Assembly: GCF_000022485.1 (NCBI RefSeq)
Contig: NC_012623.1
Location: 2,010,501-2,074,500, forward strand
Source: Sulfolobus islandicus Y.N.15.51
GTDB lineage: Archaea > Thermoproteota > Thermoprotei_A > Sulfolobales > Sulfolobaceae
Direction: 5' to 3'
DNA length: 64,000 nucleotides
This document shows positions 1,388 to 28,825 of the stretch, piece after piece. Within the stretch, counting starts at the first letter, position 1. Every line of letters starts with the position of its first letter. A program made the translations under genes and the position numbers. Under the pieces are notes generated by a model that was not told where the DNA came from, did not search any database, and saw only the letters and a program-made list of their open reading frames with translations.

Positions 1388-2118
1388 ATGAGACTATTCC
1401 CGTGAGACTACATCTCAGAAGACGAGAAGAGAAGAAGATTGCCAGCATAAAGAACTGGACGCTAATTTATGGTAGGAGAAAAACAGGCAAAACTACATTA
1501 GTTAAGAGTGCATTGAAATACGACACTTATATTATAATAGGAGACGTAAATAACGCAATAACTCAAAGCGGTGAAATAGTAAGAATTGAAAAGGCATTGG
1601 AAGAGGTGAAGAGAACTCTAAAGAATGGAGGAATAGCGGTAATTGACGAATTCCAAAGATTGCCAGAGATATATTGGTCTCTAATTGCCAGTTGGGCGCC
1701 CTTCTGGTATATTGGTAGCTATTGGCTCAAGTTACGGGATTGTCAATAAGGTTTTTGATAGAAATAGCCCCTTGTTAGGGATTTTCACACCTTCAGAAAT
1801 AGGTCTAATCTCATATGAAGACGTGCTGTCACAACTTAACGACCCAGTCTTATCGGTACTTTACAGAGACCCTTGGATAATTCCCTTCATAGAAAGTTAT
1901 GATGAGTTAAAGAAGAGAATAAAGGAGTTTTCACTAGTTGCAAAGGGTTTAATAGGAGGGTTTTCAAAGAGGAGGAAAGACAACTCACAGATCTATATTA
2001 CAAAATATTGTTAACCTTAGGGGAAGGTGTATGGAGGAGTAAGGAAATCGCTGGAATAGTACAAAGGGAAGAACCAACAATCACCTCAATGATAAATAAA
2101 TTGGCTAAAATGGGCTGA
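1388..2118 (+). pseudogene. Archaeal AAA ATPase (PF01637 type), 5' half, interrupted by IS607
   Basis: N-terminal and middle parts of a P-loop ATPase of the archaeal ATPase/DUF234 family. Visible are Walker A (YGRRKTGKTTLV), Walker B (GIAVIDEFQRLP) and, in a third frame near 2012-2118, a winged-helix segment (EIAGIVQREEPTITSMINKL). The reading frame shifts near 1390-1402 (MRLF then VRLHLRRREEK), near 1685-1740 and near 2010, so the gene was already damaged or sequencing errors exist. Translation ends AKMG then stop, exactly where the IS607 element begins. The missing C-terminus is found after the element at 4028-4462. A TATA-like tttatatatt lies just upstream near 1369. Such ATPases are abundant in Sulfolobales and their cellular role is unclear. 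Confidence 0.75.
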
Positions 2119-2141
2119 ATACTTTCTCACGTTAATAGAAA

Positions 2142-2156
2142 TCTTTTTATATTTAT
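2142..2156 (+). promoter_or_regulatory. Probable tnpA promoter (TATA box)
   Basis: The A/T run atctttttatattta lies about 25 bases upstream of the tnpA GTG start at 2175, the spacing of crenarchaeal TATA boxes in leaderless transcripts. No Shine-Dalgarno sequence precedes the GTG, which supports a leaderless mRNA. Confidence 0.4.
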
Positions 2157-2174
2157 TTATTATCAACTAATCTT

Positions 2175-2816
2175 GTGGAGAGACTACTGAGACCTAAGGA
2201 GGCTTGCCAACTGCTCAGCATCTCATACTCAACACTCCTACGGTGGATTAGAGAAGGAAAAATAAAGGTGGTAACGACTGAAGGAGGGAAGTATAGGATA
2301 CCTTACAGCGAGATTAAGAAGTACTTAGAAAGGAGGGAAGAGACGAGGGCTGTAATTTACGCAAGAGTTTCGTCAGCAGACCAGAGAGAAGACTTGGAGA
2401 GACAAATAAACTACCTAACGAACTACGCAACGGCAAAGGGTTACAAGGTAGTTGAAGTACTGAAAGATATTGCAAGCGGGTTAAACACACAAAGAAAAGG
2501 ATTGCTTAAGTTATTCAAACTTGTTGAGGGAAGGAGTGTAGACATCATATTAATAACATACAAAGACAGACTTACAAGATTTGGATTTGAGTACATTGAG
2601 GAGTTCTTTTCAACCATGGGAGTTAAGATTGAGGTTGTTTTCGGTGAGGAGCCCAAAGATGACGCACAAGAGCTAGTTGAGGACTTAATTTCCGTCGTTA
2701 CATCATTCGCAGGGAAAATTTACGGAATGAGGAGTCACAAGAAAACACTCCTAGTTCAAGGTGTAAAAAAGTTAATAGGTGAGTTAAGTGGAGAGGACAG
2801 TGAAGTTAAGGGTTAA
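2175..2816 (+). CDS. tnpA: IS607 serine recombinase TnpA
   Basis: The transposase of the element, a small serine recombinase that cuts and rejoins DNA through a phosphoserine link. Residues 1-52 form a MerR-like helix-turn-helix (ACQLLSISYSTLLRWIREGK followed by a wing). Residues 57-190 are the resolvase domain, with the catalytic serine in YARVSSADQREDLERQ. Further conserved blocks are IASGLNTQRKGLLKLF and DRLTRFGFEYIEEFF. The N-terminal DNA-binding domain placed before the catalytic domain is diagnostic for IS607, the reverse of classical resolvases. Length (213 aa) is normal. It starts with GTG, has no evident ribosome site, and overlaps tnpB by 29 bases. Confidence 0.93.
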   Translation: MERLLRPKEACQLLSISYSTLLRWIREGKIKVVTTEGGKYRIPYSEIKKYLERREETRAVIYARVSSADQREDLERQINYLTNYATAKGYKVVEVLKDIASGLNTQRKGLLKLFKLVEGRSVDIILITYKDRLTRFGFEYIEEFFSTMGVKIEVVFGEEPKDDAQELVEDLISVVTSFAGKIYGMRSHKKTLLVQGVKKLIGELSGEDSEVKG

Positions 2817-4017
2817 GGTTGATTATAAAACTTACTCAGCACTTAAGGAGGTCGAGAAGGAGTACAGAGAGGTTCTAGAGGAGGCAATAAATTATGGACT
2901 GTCAAACAAAACTACCTCCTTCACCAGGATTAAAGCTGGAGTTTACAAGACTGAGAGGGAGAAGCATAAGGACTTACCCTCCCATTATATTTACACCGCT
3001 TGTGAGGATGCAAGCGAGAGATTAGAGAGTTTTGAGAAGTTGAAGAAGAGAGGGAGGAGTTACACTGAGAAACCGTCTGTGAGGAGAGTTACTATTCACC
3101 TGGATGATCACTTATGGAAGTTCAACCTCGACACGATTTCAATTTCCACAAAGAAGGGTAGGGTTTTCATTTCACCAACCTTCCCTAAGATCTTCTGGAG
3201 ATATTATAATAAGGGTTGGTTGATTGCGAGTGAGGCCAAGTTTAAATTGTTGAAGGGGAATGTTGTAGAGTTCTACGTCATTTTTAAGAGGGATGTTAAA
3301 CCTTATGAGCCTAAAGCGTTTATTCCCGTCGACCTTAACGAGAATTCGGTCTCGGTGCTCATCAATAGTAAACCCTTATTGCTTGAGACTAACACTAAGA
3401 AAATTACTCTGGGCTATGAGTATAGGAGGAAGGCAATAACTACTGGTAAGTCAACTAAGGATAGGGAAGTGAGGAGGAAGTTAAAGATGCTGAGGGAGAG
3501 GGATAAGAAAGTAGACATTAGGAGGAAATTAGCTAAGCTGATCGTTAAAGAGGCTTTTGAAAGTAGGAGTGTCATAGTTTTAGAGGACTTGCCCAAGAGG
3601 GCTCCAGAGCATATGGTTAAGGATATTAAGGATAAACAGCTTAGGTTGAGGATTTATAGATCTGCATTTTCCTCAATGAAGAATGCTATTATTGAGAAGG
3701 CTAGGGAGTTTGGTGTCCCCGTGGTCTTAGTTAACCCATCTTATACTTCCACTGTTTGCCCAGTTCATGGAACTAAGATCGTTTACCAACCCGATGGGGG
3801 CGATGCCCCAAGGGTTGGTGTTTGTGAGAAGGGGAAGGAAAAGTGGCATAGGGATGTAGTTGCACTGTACAATCTGAAGAAAAGGGCTGGAGATGTGAGC
3901 CCAGTGCCGTTGGGCTCGAAGGAGTCCCATGACCCACCTACAGTAAGTGGGTGGTTGAGGGCTAAGTCCCTACACTCGATCATGAATGAACATAAAATGA
4001 TTGAAATGAAAGTGTAG
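2788..4017 (+). CDS. tnpB: TnpB RNA-guided nuclease of IS607 (OrfB family)
   Basis: TnpB proteins are RNA-guided DNA nucleases, ancestral to Cas12, that help keep the transposon at its site. The RuvC triad is visible: Asp in FIPVDLNEN (about residue 181), Glu in VIVLEDLPKR (about 265) and Asp in WHRDVVALYNL (about 355). Between the last two is a zinc-finger-like insert with CPVH and GVCEKG, so the usual four cysteines are reduced to Cys/His-type ligands. Length 409 aa is full for the family. Translation probably couples to tnpA through the overlap. The C-terminal 35 residues are encoded inside a hairpin-rich 3' region that probably doubles as guide RNA scaffold. All catalytic residues are present, so the protein is predicted active. 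Confidence 0.92.
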   Translation: MERTVKLRVKVDYKTYSALKEVEKEYREVLEEAINYGLSNKTTSFTRIKAGVYKTEREKHKDLPSHYIYTACEDASERLESFEKLKKRGRSYTEKPSVRRVTIHLDDHLWKFNLDTISISTKKGRVFISPTFPKIFWRYYNKGWLIASEAKFKLLKGNVVEFYVIFKRDVKPYEPKAFIPVDLNENSVSVLINSKPLLLETNTKKITLGYEYRRKAITTGKSTKDREVRRKLKMLRERDKKVDIRRKLAKLIVKEAFESRSVIVLEDLPKRAPEHMVKDIKDKQLRLRIYRSAFSSMKNAIIEKAREFGVPVVLVNPSYTSTVCPVHGTKIVYQPDGGDAPRVGVCEKGKEKWHRDVVALYNLKKRAGDVSPVPLGSKESHDPPTVSGWLRAKSLHSIMNEHKMIEMKV

Positions 4018-4027
4018 GGACAAACGG
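3885..4027 (+). ncRNA. Candidate omega (re)RNA scaffold at tnpB 3' end
   Basis: TnpB guides are known to come from the 3' end of the tnpB transcript, running through the right end of the element. Here two short perfect hairpins lie in that place: gagccca/tgggctc at 3897-3917 and acccac/gtgggt at 3932-3952, followed by agggctaagtccct. The guide segment would start just outside the element with ttggtaagtaag, from the interrupted ATPase gene. This is inferred from position and base pairing only. Confidence 0.35.
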
Positions 4028-4462
4028 TTGGTAAGTAAGATTCTCACATTAGGAAAAGAGAACTATTATAAAGTATCTTCCCCTCCCCTTTCCTTAATCT
4101 TGTATGCTGAAAGTAAGTATATGGTAGGCGAAAGGGATGCGTTGATAGAGGAACTACCCATTGGAAGGGAAGTCCAGTTTTCAATAGGAGAAATGTTAGC
4201 TAAGTACTTTGGAGGCCAACTCTACTATTCTCCTAAAGAGGACATAGATGTTGTAATAGTTAAGAAAAAGAAGCCAATATGGGCTTTTGAAATTAAGATG
4301 GGAGAAATTACTAAAAGTGAAGCATTAAATAGTATAAAGAGGATGAGTAAGGTAAGCGAAAGGGTTGGTTTTGTCAGTTTAAAGGAGAAACCAAACGATT
4401 ATGGTGACTTAAATTTAGGTCCTAAGGAGTTAATGCAAATCGCAAAGGAGTTATCTAGTTAA
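4028..4462 (+). pseudogene. Archaeal ATPase 3' part (DUF234 nuclease-like domain)
   Basis: The C-terminal half of the ATPase gene broken by the IS607 element. It begins LVSKILTLGKENYYKVSSP, the continuation of the winged-helix region, then SLILYAESKYM, typical of the start of DUF234. The DUF234 core is a PD-(D/E)xK-like fold: an Asp in KEDIDVVIV and Glu-x-Lys in IWAFEIKMG. It has no start signal of its own. The TTG at 4028 falls at the element edge, so expression as a separate protein is doubtful unless reading comes from within the IS. It ends 41 bases before the NurA-like gene, so the intact ATPase may once have been co-transcribed with it. Confidence 0.75.
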
Positions 4463-4503: not shown

Positions 4504-5688
4504 ATGGAATGGAAGATAAGGATTAAGGAGGTAATCGAAAAGATCGCTACGGTAAAGAGGAGGATGCCAGAGGTTAGGGTAGATAACGAGGGAAACCCAG
4601 AACATGAAATTGAGGAGAGAATAATGACGATAGAGCTACTTAGTGAAAAGGTAAAGCCAGAAGTCTACCCCTTGGACTACTTTAAGTACGATAGTAATAA
4701 GAGAATTGCCTCCTTAGATTCCTCCTCTAGGTATTTAAGGGACCACTCCGTCAACACTTGTCTTGTAGGATTGTCAATTTACAGTAATAAAAAGGGGTTC
4801 ATGGACGGTCCATATACAATAAATACTCCCTACATGGGGATAAGTAGCTATGAGGACATCTTAAAGGCAATTAACGTCAATGACAATTACATCAGGACTA
4901 AGAACGTCATAGGCTACTATTACGTGAATGAACCCAGAAACGAGTACAAAATAGATGACATAGCTGATGAGATCAGAACTGAGGCAGAAAATATAGGTTT
5001 GAAAGAGGTAATTGACGATCATGATATAGTAATAGTTGACGGCCCCATTTATCCAACACCCCTAGAGTTAACTGAGGAATTGGAAGTCATAACTGAGGCT
5101 AGAAGGAAGCACAAAATCGCGTATGCGAAGCTTGTGAACGATAGGATAAAAGCTCTAAACGACAAAGTCATTGGAGTAGTTAAGAGGTTGGAGAACTCCA
5201 AGAAGCTCGTAAATGAGAAGAAGATCACCGAATTGTTGGGAATAGAGAACAGAAACATTAAGGATAATACTGTATTGGAATTAATAGATGAAAAAGTGTG
5301 TAGAAAGAGTAATTACCCATATATTTGCATTATAGGTCCCTTCAAGATAGAATACGCAATACAAGTTGAGGAGGAGAACGGAAGTAAGGTTATTGAAAAG
5401 GTTCCACCTAAATACGCCTATTACGTTATAATGAGAAGACCCTATTTTCCTCCTAGCTTTTTGAGGATAGAAAGTATAAGTGATAAAATGAACTTATCCC
5501 CAGTTCTCTCAAGAATAACTGAGAACAACCTATTACCAACTTACATTGAGATCGTGGATAAAAGGAGTAAGAGGATATCAGCTTCCCTCTTCATTTACGC
5601 TTATGAAATCGCGTCAAATAACTTGAATATAATTCACGACGATAAGATGACCTACGCTAACGTTTTCCAGCAATTCCTAACTAGTTAA
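4504..5688 (+). CDS. NurA-family 5'-3' nuclease (paralog, 394 aa)
   Basis: NurA nucleases act with the HerA hexameric translocase to resect DNA ends. The two metal-binding blocks are visible: RIASLDSSSRYLR (about residues 68-80) and DIVIVDGPIYPTPLEL (about 178-193). The latter is followed by a long charged helix (200-250) and a C-terminal aromatic block (MRRPYFPPSF, HDDKMTYAN). At 394 aa it is larger than the approximately 340 aa of the canonical Sulfolobus NurA, and it does not sit with mre11/rad50 here, so it is probably an accessory paralog. It starts at ATG within ctatataATGG with no ribosome site. It converges on the HerA-like gene, with 42 bases between stops. Confidence 0.72.
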   Translation: MEWKIRIKEVIEKIATVKRRMPEVRVDNEGNPEHEIEERIMTIELLSEKVKPEVYPLDYFKYDSNKRIASLDSSSRYLRDHSVNTCLVGLSIYSNKKGFMDGPYTINTPYMGISSYEDILKAINVNDNYIRTKNVIGYYYVNEPRNEYKIDDIADEIRTEAENIGLKEVIDDHDIVIVDGPIYPTPLELTEELEVITEARRKHKIAYAKLVNDRIKALNDKVIGVVKRLENSKKLVNEKKITELLGIENRNIKDNTVLELIDEKVCRKSNYPYICIIGPFKIEYAIQVEEENGSKVIEKVPPKYAYYVIMRRPYFPPSFLRIESISDKMNLSPVLSRITENNLLPTYIEIVDKRSKRISASLFIYAYEIASNNLNIIHDDKMTYANVFQQFLTS

Positions 5689-5730
5689 AAGTTGCAGTAA
5701 GAGTTCTAGCTTTCACCTTCTATACAACCC

Positions 5731-7536
5731 TTAACTAGTCAAAATGGTCTTTATCGGTATTTCGCTGAAGTTAATTGAATACACAATACCTAACCCTGGA
5801 ATTGCGTGTTTTAGGAAATCCTCGTACTCCTCTAATCCTATTCTCCTCAACACGTGACTTTCATTCCTCATCACCACTTTAGTATTGGCTAACTGTAAAA
5901 CTAGTGGATTCAGATCCTCTGGAACGTGGGTAGCTAACACAACACCCATATTCCTTACTCTACCTAACCTCATTACCTTATTTATCAATCCCTCAACTAT
6001 ATCCTTTGACACGTTCTCAGAGTCAGTCTGCGGAAAATACTCGTGAGCTTCATCCATAATTATTAACGATAGTTTAGTGTCTTGCTTTTTCTTATACAGT
6101 TCATCTTTCCAAGCGAAGAAGTCTTCCAATACCTTATAAGCAATGGTTGCGACGGCCTCGATTGAAGCTGATCTCTCCATAACCCAGCTCAAGTCCACAA
6201 CCACGTCGTCATTTGGTATCTTATCAAGTCTGAAATCAACTGTCCCTGGGACTGTGAATATCCCATAACTATCGTATGCCTTCAATGTCCTAACTATAAC
6301 GTCTTGCGTTGAATAGGCCAACTCAAGTTCCTTCATTACACTACGTAACATCTTACCCATGTGGAAAGTTAACGTCCTAGTCTTGGGATCATAGGCAACT
6401 TCATCCTTGCTAAAATTTGAACTAATGCTAATGCCACTTAAAGTAACGCTTATATTACCTATAAGTTTCCCCGGAGTTAGATTATCCCTTAATATGGATG
6501 CGATCTCGTAATCTGTCAATCCCCTATTGATCTTATCCTTTAATGAGTACCTAATCTTATCTAGCAATTCGTCAATAATGGCCTCCCAGTACATGGAAGC
6601 TCTAGCAGTAAAGTAAGGGTTTATCTTATTGAAGTTCCTTAGATTATCGTAAAAGTTTATGGAATAGGGAACTACGAAAACGTCGTGATTGTTACACCTA
6701 ACAAATGCCCCGTAACCGTTTACTACGTTAATGGTGTTAGGGTCGCATCCATACCAGTTGGCGAAATCCTCAACGTGGTCTTGAATTGAAACCTTACTAT
6801 TGGGTTCTTCAACGACTGGCATTAAAACGGAGAAGTCTTTCCTATCCTTTAAGAAATTAACGAAGTCCCCTTGCCTATCGAATATCAAAGTACTCTTATC
6901 AATGTCTTGGCTGGAAATTATCGTCTTAAGTAAAGTGGTCTTACCGGATCCAGTTGTGCCTAAAATTAAGGTGTGATGCCTTAAGGCGTATTGGTCAAGT
7001 TTAACCTCAGCCTCAATCTCCTCTCCCCCAGAAAATATTTTCCCAATCACGATACCCTTTTCTGGAATCCTCAAAATTCTCTCGATTAAATTAGGGTTTG
7101 GGATGAACACTGGACTTTGAGGGTCGATGGGTGAAACAGCTGGCCTAATCTTATCTCCTTCCATTTCCGCAATTGGTCTCAAGGCTATGTAAGTGGTTGT
7201 AATAATGGTAGAGGGATCCCTAGGGTAAGTTAATTCTCTTATTCCCAGTCTAGATAAGGCGTCAGCTCTACTAATGGAGTAAACTTGCCCAAGCATTATG
7301 ATTGGTTTTATGATACTCCTTATAGCTAGGTATTGACCCCTCTTTATATCGCTGTTCTGATAATTATCGAAAAGTACGTCAACTCCTACTAACTCGTTCT
7401 CGTTAACGGTAACTATCTCATACCTAGTCACCCTTCCGATTATTGTTCCGTATTTACTTGCCTCATTCTCGGCATCATCGAGCTTTTTCCTTAGTTCATC
7501 AATAACGTTTTCTAAATTCCTTTCCTCTGATGACAT
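5731..7536 (-). CDS. HerA-like hexameric ATPase/translocase (paralog)
   Basis: HerA proteins are FtsK-like DNA translocases that pump DNA for NurA. Residues 15-130 fit the N-terminal HAS-barrel ([27 protein letters not shown]). Walker A is [14 protein letters not shown] near residue 190. Walker B is [12 protein letters not shown] near 495. It is followed by [18 protein letters not shown], the sensor/arginine region typical of HerA, and a C-terminal [13 protein letters not shown] segment. Length 601 aa exceeds the approximately 500 aa canonical protein, with extra sequence around 230-400. It lies 52 bases downstream of the small YwgA-like gene on the same strand, probably one operon, and faces the NurA-like gene. 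All ATPase motifs are intact. Confidence 0.85.
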
Positions 7537-7588
7537 AAATATAAGGTTGAAAAATAGAAATTAAAATTTTACTCGAGTTGAAAACGCT

Positions 7589-7990
7589 TTACCTTCTCGT
7601 CGCTGGTGTATCAAAGTAGGAACCATACCTTACTAGAAGGTATTTGAAAATCTCATAATAGTCCTTTCTAATCCAATACCTAAAGAAGTTCATAATGTTA
7701 TCCTCAATCTCAACTTCAACGTTATTCCTCAAAACGTAAATGTCGAAAATTGATAGGCTAACACTTTTAATTACCTCAACTGTGCCTTGACTAACTAACC
7801 TCTTCAGTGTTTCCTTAAGCTTTAGGGAATAGGGGCCAAAAATACTTGGCGTGAAGTCTAGGTTTAACTCAACTCCTAGCACCTTTTCTAGCAAGAATAT
7901 TATGAACTGTATTTCATTTAGTGTAAGTTTAGCCTCATCCTCCCGACTGACTTTAAGCAAAGCTAATAGGTACATTTCACTCTCTTCCAT
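7589..7990 (-). CDS. YwgA/Panacea (DUF4065-like) small helical protein
   Basis: A 133-residue protein with the signature order of the YwgA/DUF4065 group. First is an N-terminal helix (YLLALLKVSRE). Next comes LNEIQFIIFLLEKVLGVELN, equivalent to the KLQKLLYLLE helix of that group. Last is FTPSIFGPYSLKLKETLKRL, equivalent to the Y/F-GPYS-ExL motif. The C-terminus is rich in Tyr and Arg. Members are often found in prophages, toxin-antitoxin loci and defence islands, acting as antitoxin or adaptor. Here it is the first gene of a likely operon with the HerA-like ATPase, so a regulator or adaptor role in that module is inferred. The family call rests on motif resemblance only. Confidence 0.5.
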   Translation of the reverse strand: MEESEMYLLALLKVSREDEAKLTLNEIQFIIFLLEKVLGVELNLDFTPSIFGPYSLKLKETLKRLVSQGTVEVIKSVSLSIFDIYVLRNNVEVEIEDNIMNFFRYWIRKDYYEIFKYLLVRYGSYFDTPATRR

Positions 7991-17813: not shown

Positions 17814-18500
17814 TTAGAACTTCTTATTACTGTTACCGCTTATTTGCTTCTCACATTTAGCCCTATATTCACAAATATCGCATTGCCATTTCATATCCTG
17901 ATTCTCCTTACCCTCTGGTGGTGGCAATTCCCTTTTTATGAGGTAATCATGAAGCATTTCAACCCTCTTAATTGTCTCGTTAAAGAGATCTGGGTTAAAG
18001 GAAATTTCAAACTCCTCCATTTCAAAACTTCCCCTATCCACATAAAGGATAATCCCCTTAGAGTTAGGGTAAGCCCTTAAATATACGTTAAGCTGGGCTA
18101 TATGCTCCTTTCTAGGTAGATAAGACCTCTTACTCTCTAAATCATCAATAGTTTTGACCTCGACAACATATCTCGACTTTCCAACTGTCACTATTATAAT
18201 ATCGTCAGCTCTACCAGAAATTACTACATCGTGCCTATTTGGATGAGGTATCCTTATGGGTACTTCAGACTCAACCCTCACGGATTCCTCTTTCTTGAGT
18301 GTTTCCGCTATAAATTCATGAATTATAGTTCCCAGGGTTGTAAACTTCTTACTTTCTAAGGACATGGGAAAAGGAGAAATTCTGGAATAGTACTGCTTTC
18401 TTAAACAATACCATATCTGGGACGGCCAATATTCACCGTCGAAGAACTCTGGAATAGAAGTATAACTTAAATGCTTGTGAATAATTTCCTTAACTACCAT
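17814..18500 (-). CDS. Cas4-like RecB-family nuclease (Fe-S, PD-(D/E)xK)
   Basis: A 228-residue Cas4/Dna2-type exonuclease. The N-terminal Cys is in SQIWYCLRKQYYSR (about residue 32). Nuclease motifs follow: His in TLGTIIHEFIAE, Asp in GRADDIIIV, Glu-x-Lys in YVVEVKTIDD, and Gln-Tyr-type HIAQLNVYLRAY. Three C-terminal cysteines in WQCDICEYRAKCEKQ complete a four-Cys iron-sulphur site. Cas4 normally trims spacers for CRISPR adaptation, but no cas1/cas2 or repeat array is visible within this window. It is thus a solo Cas4, as seen on archaeal viruses, plasmids and chromosomes. A DNA repair or mobile-element origin is equally possible. All key residues are intact. Confidence 0.8.
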   Translation of the reverse strand: MVVKEIIHKHLSYTSIPEFFDGEYWPSQIWYCLRKQYYSRISPFPMSLESKKFTTLGTIIHEFIAETLKKEESVRVESEVPIRIPHPNRHDVVISGRADDIIIVTVGKSRYVVEVKTIDDLESKRSYLPRKEHIAQLNVYLRAYPNSKGIILYVDRGSFEMEEFEISFNPDLFNETIKRVEMLHDYLIKRELPPPEGKENQDMKWQCDICEYRAKCEKQISGNSNKKF

Positions 18501-25705: not shown

Positions 25706-26167
25706 ATGTATGTGTTATTTAAGGGAACACTTACAAACTTCCTCTTCTCACTTGACGATTACAAAACGAGAAAATCTAAACTTATACAAAAATATCCTCA
25801 AGGCTCTTTCATTTGGGGATTTAACCGATCTAGTAAACTTTTAGAAAATCAAGTAAGAGCATTTTTATACCTTAATAAATCTGAGTCACACTTAAAAGGT
25901 GGTATAGTCTTGGAGGGTGAGATAATAGATATTGCGGAATTAAGCGAAAAATACTGGCCAGAAGGGGAATGGAAATATTATGTGACATTGAAGATTATAT
26001 ATATACCTAAATCGGTACTTTCTACGACAGATACAACTAGATGGAAAATAATAGGTTTAGACAAACTTAAGGAAATAGGAGTTAAAATTTTACCTGGAAT
26101 ACAAAAAATAGATAATGAACTTGGTAGGAGAATAGAGAAACTTTTAGGTGAGATCGATGCAAACTAG
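25706..26167 (+). CDS. EVE/PUA-like domain protein of the RM operon
   Basis: 153 aa, first gene of the restriction-modification operon. A mixed beta domain reads KYPQGSFIWGFNRSSKLLEN, FLYLNKSESHLKGGIVLEGE and WKYYVTLKIIYIPKSV. It has the Trp/Phe-rich order and G-x-G-x-E strand of EVE/ASCH/PUA-fold proteins, which read modified bases in nucleic acids. EVE domains are often found with restriction systems. The call is from pattern only. The stop codon overlaps the methyltransferase ATG (ATGCAAACTAG), so the two are coupled. A separate specificity or regulatory subunit is an alternative role. Confidence 0.5.
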   Translation: MYVLFKGTLTNFLFSLDDYKTRKSKLIQKYPQGSFIWGFNRSSKLLENQVRAFLYLNKSESHLKGGIVLEGEIIDIAELSEKYWPEGEWKYYVTLKIIYIPKSVLSTTDTTRWKIIGLDKLKEIGVKILPGIQKIDNELGRRIEKLLGEIDAN

Positions 26168-27368
26168 CATTGATGATTTTCTAAATAATAAGTATCGTTC
26201 CGTGCTGTTTAGAGATATAGTGAAATTAAGGACAAATTATGCTACACACGATCTCTATCCATATCCTGCAAAATTTATTCCTAATGTGATAAGGTATTTC
26301 ATAGAAGCTTACACCAAGCCTGGAGAAACGTTATTTGACCCATTTGCTGGATCTGGTACCGTGGCAATTGAGGCTGAGATAACAGGCAGGAATTATATTC
26401 TATGGGATTTAAATCCAATAATAGAAATCCTGGTTAAAGCAGAAACGTGGAAGGACGAAATTTCGGAAAAGATTTTTGAAATAGATTTTAATTATAACAA
26501 AAGTTTTATACCTAAATGGAAAAACTTAGGTTATTGGCATCCTAAAGAATTTATAGCTCAGTTGTCAAAACTTTGGGCATATTACCACGACCATCCGAAC
26601 CCTTTAGTCGCAATACCGTTGTTTAAAATTACGAAATATTTCTCTTATGCTGAACTGGAATTCCCAAAATTATATAAATCAAAATTTGCAATAGAAAGAG
26701 TCAACGAGCTGTTAAATTCTAATTGGAAAGAAATAATGAGAGACATGTATTGGAAAGAAGTTGAAAGAGTTATAAGGAAGGTTAAGGAATTTCAATCTTT
26801 ATGTAAATGCGTTTCCAGTGGAAAAGTTTACGGAGGAGTCGACGTTTTAAGCGAAAGCCCTCCAAATGTAAATGCTGTAATAACTTCACCCCCCTATCTG
26901 CAAGCCCAAGAATATATAAGGACGTTTAAAATTGAATTATATTGGCTGGGCTATGACGATAATAAAATAAAAGAGCTAAGTAAAAAGGAAATTCCATATA
27001 ATAAACCCCCTAATGTAGAAATAAGGAGTAAAACCTTCAAGGAATACCTAGAAAAAATAGAGGAATTTGGAAATAAGAAACTGGTCGACATTTATATTAC
27101 CTACTTTAGGTCACTGACATACTTCTTTGGTAAGGTTAATGCAAGAACCTTAGGAATATTTGTGGGGCCAGTAAAAGTAAGAACGCTTAGAGTACCTATA
27201 GACGAAATATTAAAGGAGCATTTAGAATCATTAGGCTGGAAGCACGAAGTAACTTTCATAGACAAAATAGTATCTAGACGAATAAAGGAAGTGTATAAGA
27301 ACCCTGCTACAAAGTTAGAAGACGAACGCACGCCGACAGAGCACTTACTTATTATGAAGAAAAATTAA
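26157..27368 (+). CDS. DNA methyltransferase (N4-C or N6-A, TSPPY type)
   Basis: 403 aa. The N-terminus contains THDLYPYPAKFIPNVIRYF, the H-x-PYPAKF entry typical of this methyltransferase group. Motif I is TLFDPFAGSGTVAIEAE (SAM binding) with acidic LWDLNP after it. Motif IV is NAVITSPPYLQAQEY (catalytic, amino-methylating). Motif I precedes motif IV, with a target-recognition-like variable region between about residues 110 and 240. The start ATG at 26157 is preferred over the upstream in-frame GTG because ggtgag precedes it and it overlaps the previous stop. It would protect host DNA against the endonuclease encoded next. Confidence 0.88.
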   Translation: MQTSIDDFLNNKYRSVLFRDIVKLRTNYATHDLYPYPAKFIPNVIRYFIEAYTKPGETLFDPFAGSGTVAIEAEITGRNYILWDLNPIIEILVKAETWKDEISEKIFEIDFNYNKSFIPKWKNLGYWHPKEFIAQLSKLWAYYHDHPNPLVAIPLFKITKYFSYAELEFPKLYKSKFAIERVNELLNSNWKEIMRDMYWKEVERVIRKVKEFQSLCKCVSSGKVYGGVDVLSESPPNVNAVITSPPYLQAQEYIRTFKIELYWLGYDDNKIKELSKKEIPYNKPPNVEIRSKTFKEYLEKIEEFGNKKLVDIYITYFRSLTYFFGKVNARTLGIFVGPVKVRTLRVPIDEILKEHLESLGWKHEVTFIDKIVSRRIKEVYKNPATKLEDERTPTEHLLIMKKN

Positions 27369-27413
27369 TTTCTTCCTTCTCCCGCTTAATTTTAAACGGA
27401 ATTACAACATCAT

Positions 27414-27569
27414 ATGATAGCAATAATATACTCATGTATAGGCCCATTATATATCAAAATTGCAGAAGAAAAATGTGAAAATATAGAGGAAATAAAATCT
27501 AAATGGAAATATGCATGCTTAATTGAAGTGTTTGATGATAAGAAAGAAAAGATGCTTTATACCTCATGA
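27414..27569 (+). CDS. Small ORF, 51 aa, between methyltransferase and endonuclease
   Basis: ATG-initiated frame MIAIIYSCIGPLYIKIAEEK then CENIEEIKSKWKYACLIEVF and DDKKEKMLYTS. It has a strand-helix-strand pattern, two cysteines and acidic/basic balance like a small folded protein. It lies in the operon with 45 bases before and 53 after. It is not a helix-turn-helix controller protein of the known C type. It may regulate or inhibit the endonuclease, or may be non-functional. Confidence 0.45.
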   Translation: MIAIIYSCIGPLYIKIAEEKCENIEEIKSKWKYACLIEVFDDKKEKMLYTS

Positions 27570-27622
27570 TAAGATTATATCACATAAATAATGCTTAAGT
27601 ATTAGTAGACTCATAATGATAT

Positions 27623-28825
27623 ATGAACTTATTAACAGTTAAGAAGTATTTGTTTAAGCAATCACTTACAAAATTCCAAGAGGTCCAGTTAAAGTATATT
27701 AACTCTATACTACAAGATATATTGGTTCCAATTCTTTGTGATTATAAAAATATTGATATCATTAAGTCTCAGATAACTGATATAGAAAGTTTCTATTTTG
27801 GCTTTAAGCAAAATCCTTCATTAATATCAGAAAAACTAGCTCTCCCATTATACATATCAAATAGATTTTTTATTGCTTCATCTGGCCCTAGATTCGGCTC
27901 AATATATGAGGATCTTATTAGATCTTTTCTAGAAAATTTTGGCTACCAAGTAGATGAAAGAGTAAATATATTTAAATATACACTATTTAGTGAATATTAT
28001 CAAAAAAAGTATTCTAAACAACAAAAAGTAATAGATTTCATTGCGAGAAAAGATAATAAACTTTACTTAATAGAGCAAAGAACAAGTGAGCATTCTGGTG
28101 GAGGAACTGCTCAAGGATCACTATTAGATAAGTTTAAAGTCTTTCTGAATTGGATTATAGAGAAATCTGCGGACTCATTAATAAATAAAGGTATAAGAGA
28201 AATATATTTAATTATATTTATTTCATATTCAGAAAAACATGAGATATTGACTGAACAAAACGTGAATAGAGGTAGAATAAACGGTTTAATTGGAAAAATA
28301 GTAGAAAATCTCGGTGATTATTTTACCCGTCTGGTAAATAAGGGGTTTAAAACAGAATGCAAAGATCTAGCATCGTGTTTAAAAGAATATAGGAGATTAG
28401 TATTTTACACAAATCAAATTAAAATTGAGTTTAGAATTATGCTAGGAGAAGAATTCTATAAAGAAATATTAGGAGAAAAATATTCTTCGCTGAAGAATAA
28501 GATAATTAATGAAGAATTAGGAGACGATTTATGGGTAATATACTCCATTTTACCCTATGAATTAAGATTGTATTACGAGGAAGGATTTATGTGGTCTAAA
28601 CGCATATATGAAATGTTGATTTCACGATATAAGAATATTATTACCAGCGCCTCTAACGAAGATGACATTATAAATAAGATAGCTAGTAAAATTATGGAAG
28701 ATCAAAAAGATCTAAGATTACTGGAAACAAACAACTTATCAAAACAATATGAATACCTAAAAACTCTGTGCGCAGCTTCACTAATCCTTTATGCGTTAAA
28801 ATGCCCGAGTAGACTAGGTATATAA
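27623..28825 (+). CDS. Type II restriction endonuclease (PD-(D/E)xK)
   Basis: 400 aa. The catalytic core is visible at about residues 140-180. FGSIYEDLIRSFLENFGYQV gives the conserved Glu helix. KVIDFIARKDNKLYLIEQRT carries Asp and Glu-x-Arg in the PD-(D/E)xK order (Arg where Lys is usual). SEHSGGGTAQGSLLDKF follows as in known type II enzymes. The rest is helix-rich, A/T-rich and without membrane segments. It follows the methyltransferase on the same strand, the classic type II order. The recognition site cannot be read from sequence. Compared with its neighbours it is richer in A/T (Lys/Ile/Asn), a sign of transfer. Confidence 0.78.
   Translation: MNLLTVKKYLFKQSLTKFQEVQLKYINSILQDILVPILCDYKNIDIIKSQITDIESFYFGFKQNPSLISEKLALPLYISNRFFIASSGPRFGSIYEDLIRSFLENFGYQVDERVNIFKYTLFSEYYQKKYSKQQKVIDFIARKDNKLYLIEQRTSEHSGGGTAQGSLLDKFKVFLNWIIEKSADSLINKGIREIYLIIFISYSEKHEILTEQNVNRGRINGLIGKIVENLGDYFTRLVNKGFKTECKDLASCLKEYRRLVFYTNQIKIEFRIMLGEEFYKEILGEKYSSLKNKIINEELGDDLWVIYSILPYELRLYYEEGFMWSKRIYEMLISRYKNIITSASNEDDIINKIASKIMEDQKDLRLLETNNLSKQYEYLKTLCAASLILYALKCPSRLGI

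Follow-up and report, generated by a model that had tools for sequence, protein, structure and literature searches.

A fast-diverging HerA-NurA gene pair of Sulfolobaceae that is separate from the repair operon and belongs to a CRISPR-linked NurA clade

Introduction

A link between nurA-herA genes and CRISPR loci is already known from the work of Bernick et al. (2012) and from PADLOC. At Pyrobaculum CRISPR arrays the genes occur as nurA-csm6-herA; a convergent orientation is likewise reported for P. calidifontis and P. neutrophilum (Bernick et al., 2012, PMC3396285). NurA and HerA also appear in a list of putative CRISPR auxiliary genes (PMC10910872). The HerA-NurA complex of T. kodakarensis degrades both strands of double-stranded DNA from the ends in an ATP-dependent manner, and an antiviral role was suggested by the authors (PMC12977600). 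The canonical HerA-NurA operon is essential in S. islandicus (PMC4351679). Bacterial HerA-DUF4297/Duf and HerA-Sir2 systems combine a HerA motor with an effector that is a separate enzyme. In Saccharolobus, work on HerA-NurA has been confounded by the essential repair copy.

In this study, we analysed a nurA-herA pair in a stretch of 64,000 nucleotides (hereafter the window; C1:2010501-2074500 of a 2.85-Mb Sulfolobaceae genome, G000). The pair matches the PADLOC models for the Pyrobaculum/Thermoproteales nurA-csm6-herA cluster (PDLC01055 for HerA and PDLC01056 for NurA); the models matched by the two proteins carry the label "Type III coevolved". The window NurA belongs to the same clade as the NurA of that cluster, the two genes are kept together, and they stand tail to tail in several species of both groups. 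However, csm6, a CRISPR array, and cas genes are missing alongside the window pair, and the two Thermoproteales HerAs compared shared only about 27-30% identity with their nearest relatives in Sulfolobaceae (class M, see below). With the canonical HerA-Mre11-Rad50-NurA operon, the pair has the two enzyme families, the folds, and the pattern of catalytic motifs in common, whereas it lies elsewhere, encodes longer proteins, lacks Mre11 and Rad50, falls in distant clades, diverges fast, and is dispensable in some species. It shares the motor with the bacterial HerA defence systems, but its effector is NurA, and the window HerA scored far below the cut-off of the anti-phage HerA models of NCBIfam.

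The window pair encodes a NurA-type nuclease and a HerA-type translocase

An earlier note on this DNA had described a NurA-like nuclease gene converging on a HerA-like translocase gene. Indeed, both open reading frames were confirmed to be intact and stand tail to tail (Table 1); in most relatives, the 3' ends overlap by about 12-53 bp. We refer to the class of this pair as W.

Table 1 Features of the window and the five HerA-NurA pairs of the genome. Positions are those of the window unless prefixed by C1.
Feature	Position	Strand	Remarks
Wrecked AAA_14-type ATPase gene 5' of nurA	1402..4462	+	Intact 382-aa version in G013
IS607-type element in the ATPase gene	about 2135-4025		Serine recombinase 2175-2816; TnpB 2788-4017
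NurA-family nuclease, class W	4504..5688	+	394 aa; ORF list, Pfam, motif alignment, AF2 model and Foldseek
Gap between the converging stop codons of nurA and herA	5689..5730		42 bp
HerA-family hexameric translocase, class W	5731..7536	-	601 aa; Walker A/B and arginine-rich motif intact
DarG-antitoxin/YwgA-like protein	7589..7990	-	133 aa; DarG models, PDB sequence and fold match to 7yk3
Class C pair, canonical herA-mre11-rad50-nurA operon	C1:51.7-58.0 kb		HerA and NurA above equivalog cut-offs
Class U pair, universal second pair (L098)			HerA 609 aa, NurA 372 aa
Class W pair, window pair			HerA 601 aa, NurA 394 aa
Class S pair			Short NurA
Class R pair			Operon with ~1,000-aa KAP-type NTPase

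The window NurA matched PF09376 with 97.5 bits (E 1e-27; cut-off 21), which places it in the NurA family. Its AF2 model had a mean pLDDT of 86.7 and the RNase H-like fold of NurA; the top Foldseek matches were NurA structures, among them S. solfataricus NurA and the HerA-NurA complex of T. kodakarensis. In an alignment of relatives, D72, E162, and D179 were invariant; they correspond to D58, E116, and D133 of the repair NurA of the same genome, with the pattern D...E-x16-D-G. D58 is a proven catalytic residue of Sso NurA (PMC4641729). An NCBIfam search with the window NurA gave no match, and the profile-profile comparison of the W and repair NurAs gave a weak match in the C-terminal part only; hence, the family link rests on Pfam and the fold.

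The window HerA matched many HerA models (PADLOC HerA, E 9e-49; DUF87, E 3e-12, with 47.7 bits for PF01935 against a cut-off of 23.2). Walker A (GTTGSGKT), Walker B (DEAHE), and the arginine-rich motif (RLGRVR) were present and were invariant or nearly so among relatives. Together with the DUF87 core, these are the features of a HerA/FtsK translocase.

The pair is separate from the repair copy

The window genes are not the only copies in the genome. Five NurA genes were found, each with a HerA gene nearby, and the five pairs include the canonical herA-mre11-rad50-nurA operon. As the earlier note had stated, the window pair lies away from mre11-rad50 (the distance to the canonical operon is about 0.85 Mb even along the shorter arc of the circular genome), and both enzymes are longer than the canonical repair proteins (394 and 601 aa for NurA and HerA, as against 339 and 500 aa). 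On the repair equivalogs, the window HerA scored 33 bits (NF040937) and 36 bits (NF040819) against cut-offs of 800 and 970, whereas the repair HerA and NurA scored 881 and 454 bits. Thus the window pair had neither the equivalog score nor the mre11-rad50 linkage of the canonical pair. Since the canonical operon is separate and the scores of W are far below those of the repair equivalogs, the window pair is, on this sequence evidence, not the repair pair of the cell.

The class U pair, which is sister to W, is also a long-form HerA and NurA, and it matched the "Type III coevolved" models too. It differs from the window pair in being universal (31 of the 31 genomes searched, and common to members across the order), in evolving slowly and largely along the species tree, and in having a NurA outside the CRISPR-linked NurA clade.

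The small gene preceding herA

In the window genome and in G013, the small gene precedes the start of herA by 53 bp and shares the orientation of herA. No match to its 133-aa product was found in Pfam, but DarG models matched it, and PDB 7yk3 (DarG) was matched both by sequence and by fold; one homologue matches SocA_Panacea weakly (E 0.03). Sequence and fold point to the C-terminal type of the DarG antitoxin, in support of the YwgA/DUF4065-like assignment made in the earlier note.

The note had further suggested that the three genes could be one defence cassette. DarG-type antitoxins are found in defence modules, and the strand and position of the small gene in the two close relatives would fit such a unit. 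However, among the 18 W loci of Sulfolobaceae, the small gene was beside the orthologous herA only in these two and was absent at the other 16. In G016, whose HerA is 90% identical to that of the window, only about the last 79 bp of the small gene are left, yet the HerA-NurA pair is intact. Elsewhere in Sulfolobaceae, most homologues directly precede an unrelated gene of ~320 aa, and homologues without this partner occur in archaeal virus contigs, including two contigs of about 40 kb (L263 and L264); besides the window gene, the family was sampled at L048-L064 and L259-L269. Because 16 of the 18 W-class loci are without the small gene, the cassette was rejected, and we consider it highly improbable. 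Being next to herA at two loci and elsewhere viral or paired with the ~320-aa gene, the small gene is, judged from its distribution, an orphan and a recent, lineage-specific neighbour of herA.

When an adjacent toxin of the DarTG/SocA type was sought in the window, the neighbours were herA and an M20-type peptidase gene, and the usual ~320-aa partner was absent. The pattern of the small-gene family as a whole resembles that of a toxin-antitoxin pair with virus-borne homologues of the antitoxin.

CRISPR-linked relatives

In the NurA tree, the NurAs of W, of its sister class M, of family f2 (type I-A-linked), and of the Csm6/Cmr-linked loci formed one clade, which took in all the CRISPR-linked NurAs detected (100/99; the tree excludes the M NurA of G021, whose HerA is of class M in the HerA tree). 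Those of C, R, U, and the U-like group were outside. The window NurA accordingly belongs to the clade of the nurA-csm6-herA cluster, whereas csm6 or csx1 between or next to the genes and a CRISPR array close by were found for relatives only. The HerA tree gave the same groups, but U nested among the CRISPR-linked lineages, and the root and the position of U are uncertain in that tree.

Two genera of family f2 had the gene order csa5-cas7a-cas5a-cas3'-cas3''-cas8a-nurA-herA, with CRISPR arrays on the same contigs; nurA-herA close the type I-A effector operon in L272/L252 (G046) and in L274 (G050). The Thermoproteales contigs carried either Cas_APE2256 on both sides, or a Cmr1/Cmr6-type RAMP upstream and Cas_APE2256 downstream, an arrangement which is the published nurA-csm6-herA or close to it. 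Within Sulfolobaceae, csx1 was directly 5' of the W nurA in G028, G029, and G030, and as a fragment in G025; the M herA of G021 adjoins a different csx1. Two members of the genus of the window genome had arrays beside class M genes: in G015, a distance of 1.6 kb separates the pair from an array of at least 55 repeats, on the far side of which lies csx1, and in G014, a herA remnant (HerA evidence only) abuts a 142-repeat array next to csa1-cas1-cas2-cas4. These CRISPR links of the clade of the pair are few independent events. A linkage of W to type III cas10 was also considered, but a Cmr2 gene within ~10 kb was found in G019 only, which is not significant by itself.

A search for CRISPR arrays was negative for the 64-kb window and, out to about 8 kb, for every W-class locus. 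Neither cas nor csx1 was recognised beside the window pair in the ORF list and Pfam, and no known defence genes surrounded the pair in the lineage of the window.

The pair could alternatively be a helper of CRISPR adaptation that chews DNA ends and supplies fragments, or mends breaks of the array, during spacer acquisition. Such a role was proposed for Pyrobaculum (PMC3396285), and the clade members beside the arrays of G014 (next to csa1-cas1-cas2-cas4) and G015 would agree with it. The genes of family f2, however, are joined to interference genes (cas3 and cas8a) and not to cas1-cas2, and the W class had no array within the distance given above. We therefore regard this role as unlikely.

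Distribution, divergence and decay of the pair

Of the 31 Sulfolobaceae genomes, 29 carried a pair of class W or M or the remains of such a pair; G001 and G004 showed neither. In other genera, W is replaced or accompanied by class M, with a NurA of ~340 aa and a HerA of ~520-570 aa. Fourteen of the 18 W loci are tail to tail, two are co-directional, and two have separated genes. The trees of HerA and NurA gave the same classes with nearly identical branching within W, so the two proteins co-evolve. The genes flanking W differ by lineage, and most of them have metabolic functions (TPP enzyme, FAA hydrolase, CbiZ, aldo/keto reductase, and kinase); consequently, a third gene common to W loci was rejected.

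Between G000 and G014, which belong to the same genus, the HerA identity was 98% for C, 93% for U, and 100% for S but 66% for W, and the NurA identity was 89% for C and 90% for U but 67% for W. By this measure, divergence is much more rapid in the W pair than in the repair and U pairs. Furthermore, decayed copies were found in both classes: the W HerA gene has two stops in G002 and a frameshift in G019, and G023 keeps only the 3' end of the W NurA gene; for M, only a remnant of the HerA gene is left in G014, and G064 carries a frameshift.

When the genus was held together in the W tree, the AU test gave p 0.013 for the concatenation, 0.051 for HerA alone, and 0.135 for NurA alone, so that the constraint was rejected with the concatenation only. 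The W pair of G025 groups within genus g11; since this genome is a MAG of 71% completeness, mis-binning is possible. These results suggest, with moderate confidence, that the W pair descended in part non-vertically (by transfer). W HerA had no match on plasmids or phages in the sets searched, and the viral contigs gave only two short P-loop matches, indicating that the known elements of these sets do not carry the pair.

The W pair might instead be a back-up or specialised DNA-repair pair that resects or clears breaks in particular situations, such as stalled forks, and has no immune role. End processing is the best-known activity of HerA-NurA, S. islandicus cannot do without the canonical operon (PMC4351679), nearly all genomes of the family have W or M pairs or remnants of them, and the sister U pair is universal and order-wide. 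Against this stand the divergence of W, far faster than that of the repair and U pairs, its breakage or loss in several genomes, its not wholly vertical descent, and the location of its NurA clade-mates in CRISPR operons. On balance, we consider a repair role rather unlikely, though less so than the adaptation role.

Proposed role

Genome comparison established a pair of genes that are intact, kept as a two-gene unit, co-diverging, fast-evolving, sometimes lost, and part of a CRISPR-linked NurA clade. We propose that the window pair is a dedicated HerA-NurA machine for DNA destruction, belonging to a CRISPR-related clade and directed against viruses, separate from the repair copy; we hold this to be about as probable as all other readings together. 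The HerA ring, by analogy with characterised homologues, would load onto a free end of double-stranded DNA and, as in the T. kodakarensis complex, pump the DNA into the NurA dimer, which would cut both strands. The targets may be foreign DNA with free ends, that is, linear virus genomes or DNA opened by effectors of the Cas3/Cas10 type. As the genes stand alone in the lineage of the window, the pair would work either on its own or in trans to CRISPR loci at other places of the genome.

The suggestion of the earlier note that the locus is an anti-virus system rather than one for general end resection thus gained support for the pair, short of proof, because of the CRISPR-linked NurA clade, the rapid divergence, the loss and decay, and the partly non-vertical descent; it did not hold in the three-gene form. 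A presence in 29 of 31 genomes, pairs or remnants, is nevertheless unusually common for an optional defence system, and the lack of arrays near W loci and in the window also speaks against a defence role.

More widely, and tentatively, crenarchaeal HerA-NurA shredders could have joined CRISPR types repeatedly (the type I-A effector operon and Csm6/Csx1-linked type III) and could, in Saccharolobus and relatives, serve as a free-standing innate anti-virus system that attacks linear ends in a RecBCD-like manner; we rather doubt this wider reading. Rudi- and lipothrixviruses of Sulfolobales have linear dsDNA genomes, and we know of no general end-attacking nuclease defence established in Sulfolobales. 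The fusion to the type I-A operon, the unity of the clade, and the free-standing Saccharolobus branch were not found in a partial search of the literature. Being separate from the essential repair operon, dispensable, fast-evolving, and akin to pairs embedded in CRISPR loci, the W pair offers a clean genetic test in Saccharolobus. It would help to decide between resection and DNA destruction as the role of HerA-NurA, a question reopened in 2026 (PMC12977600).

Other genes of the window and of related loci

The ATPase gene 5' of nurA is frameshifted and split by the IS607-type element (Table 1), and is not part of the HerA-NurA unit. A second element with the same ORF lengths and very similar starts is located ~20 kb upstream (G000:C1:1992031-1993873; L275:2032-3874).

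The class R operon has the order nurA, a 229-aa gene with weak Rad50/LmuB coiled-coil matches, the KAP-type NTPase gene, herA, a DUF5591 gene, and a gene of ~295 aa (L096:1915-9802, which is G000:C1:9.9-17.8 kb; L110:1295-9976; L150). This operon is possibly another system for defence or DNA processing. In G018, the W herA directly follows the class R operon, and the W nurA has copies of the final two operon genes next to it.

Genes for DUF3782/PD-(D/E)XK-type nucleases immediately adjoined pairs of class W or M in G017, G019, and G018 (M in the last), at L102:7280-8161 (by Pfam) and at L111:5959-6747 and L171:9684-10697 (by similarity). Such genes are probably common in general.

Within the window, which has no CRISPR array, a 228-aa protein encoded at 17814-18500 (-) was similar to PDB 4ic1 (E 1e-6), which we take to be a Cas4-family nuclease. 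Finally, a DNA methyltransferase-like gene at 26148-28825 (+), with N4-cytosine methyltransferases as the best PDB matches (E 4e-4), is followed by a 400-aa gene without an assigned family; the two are possibly a restriction-modification pair.
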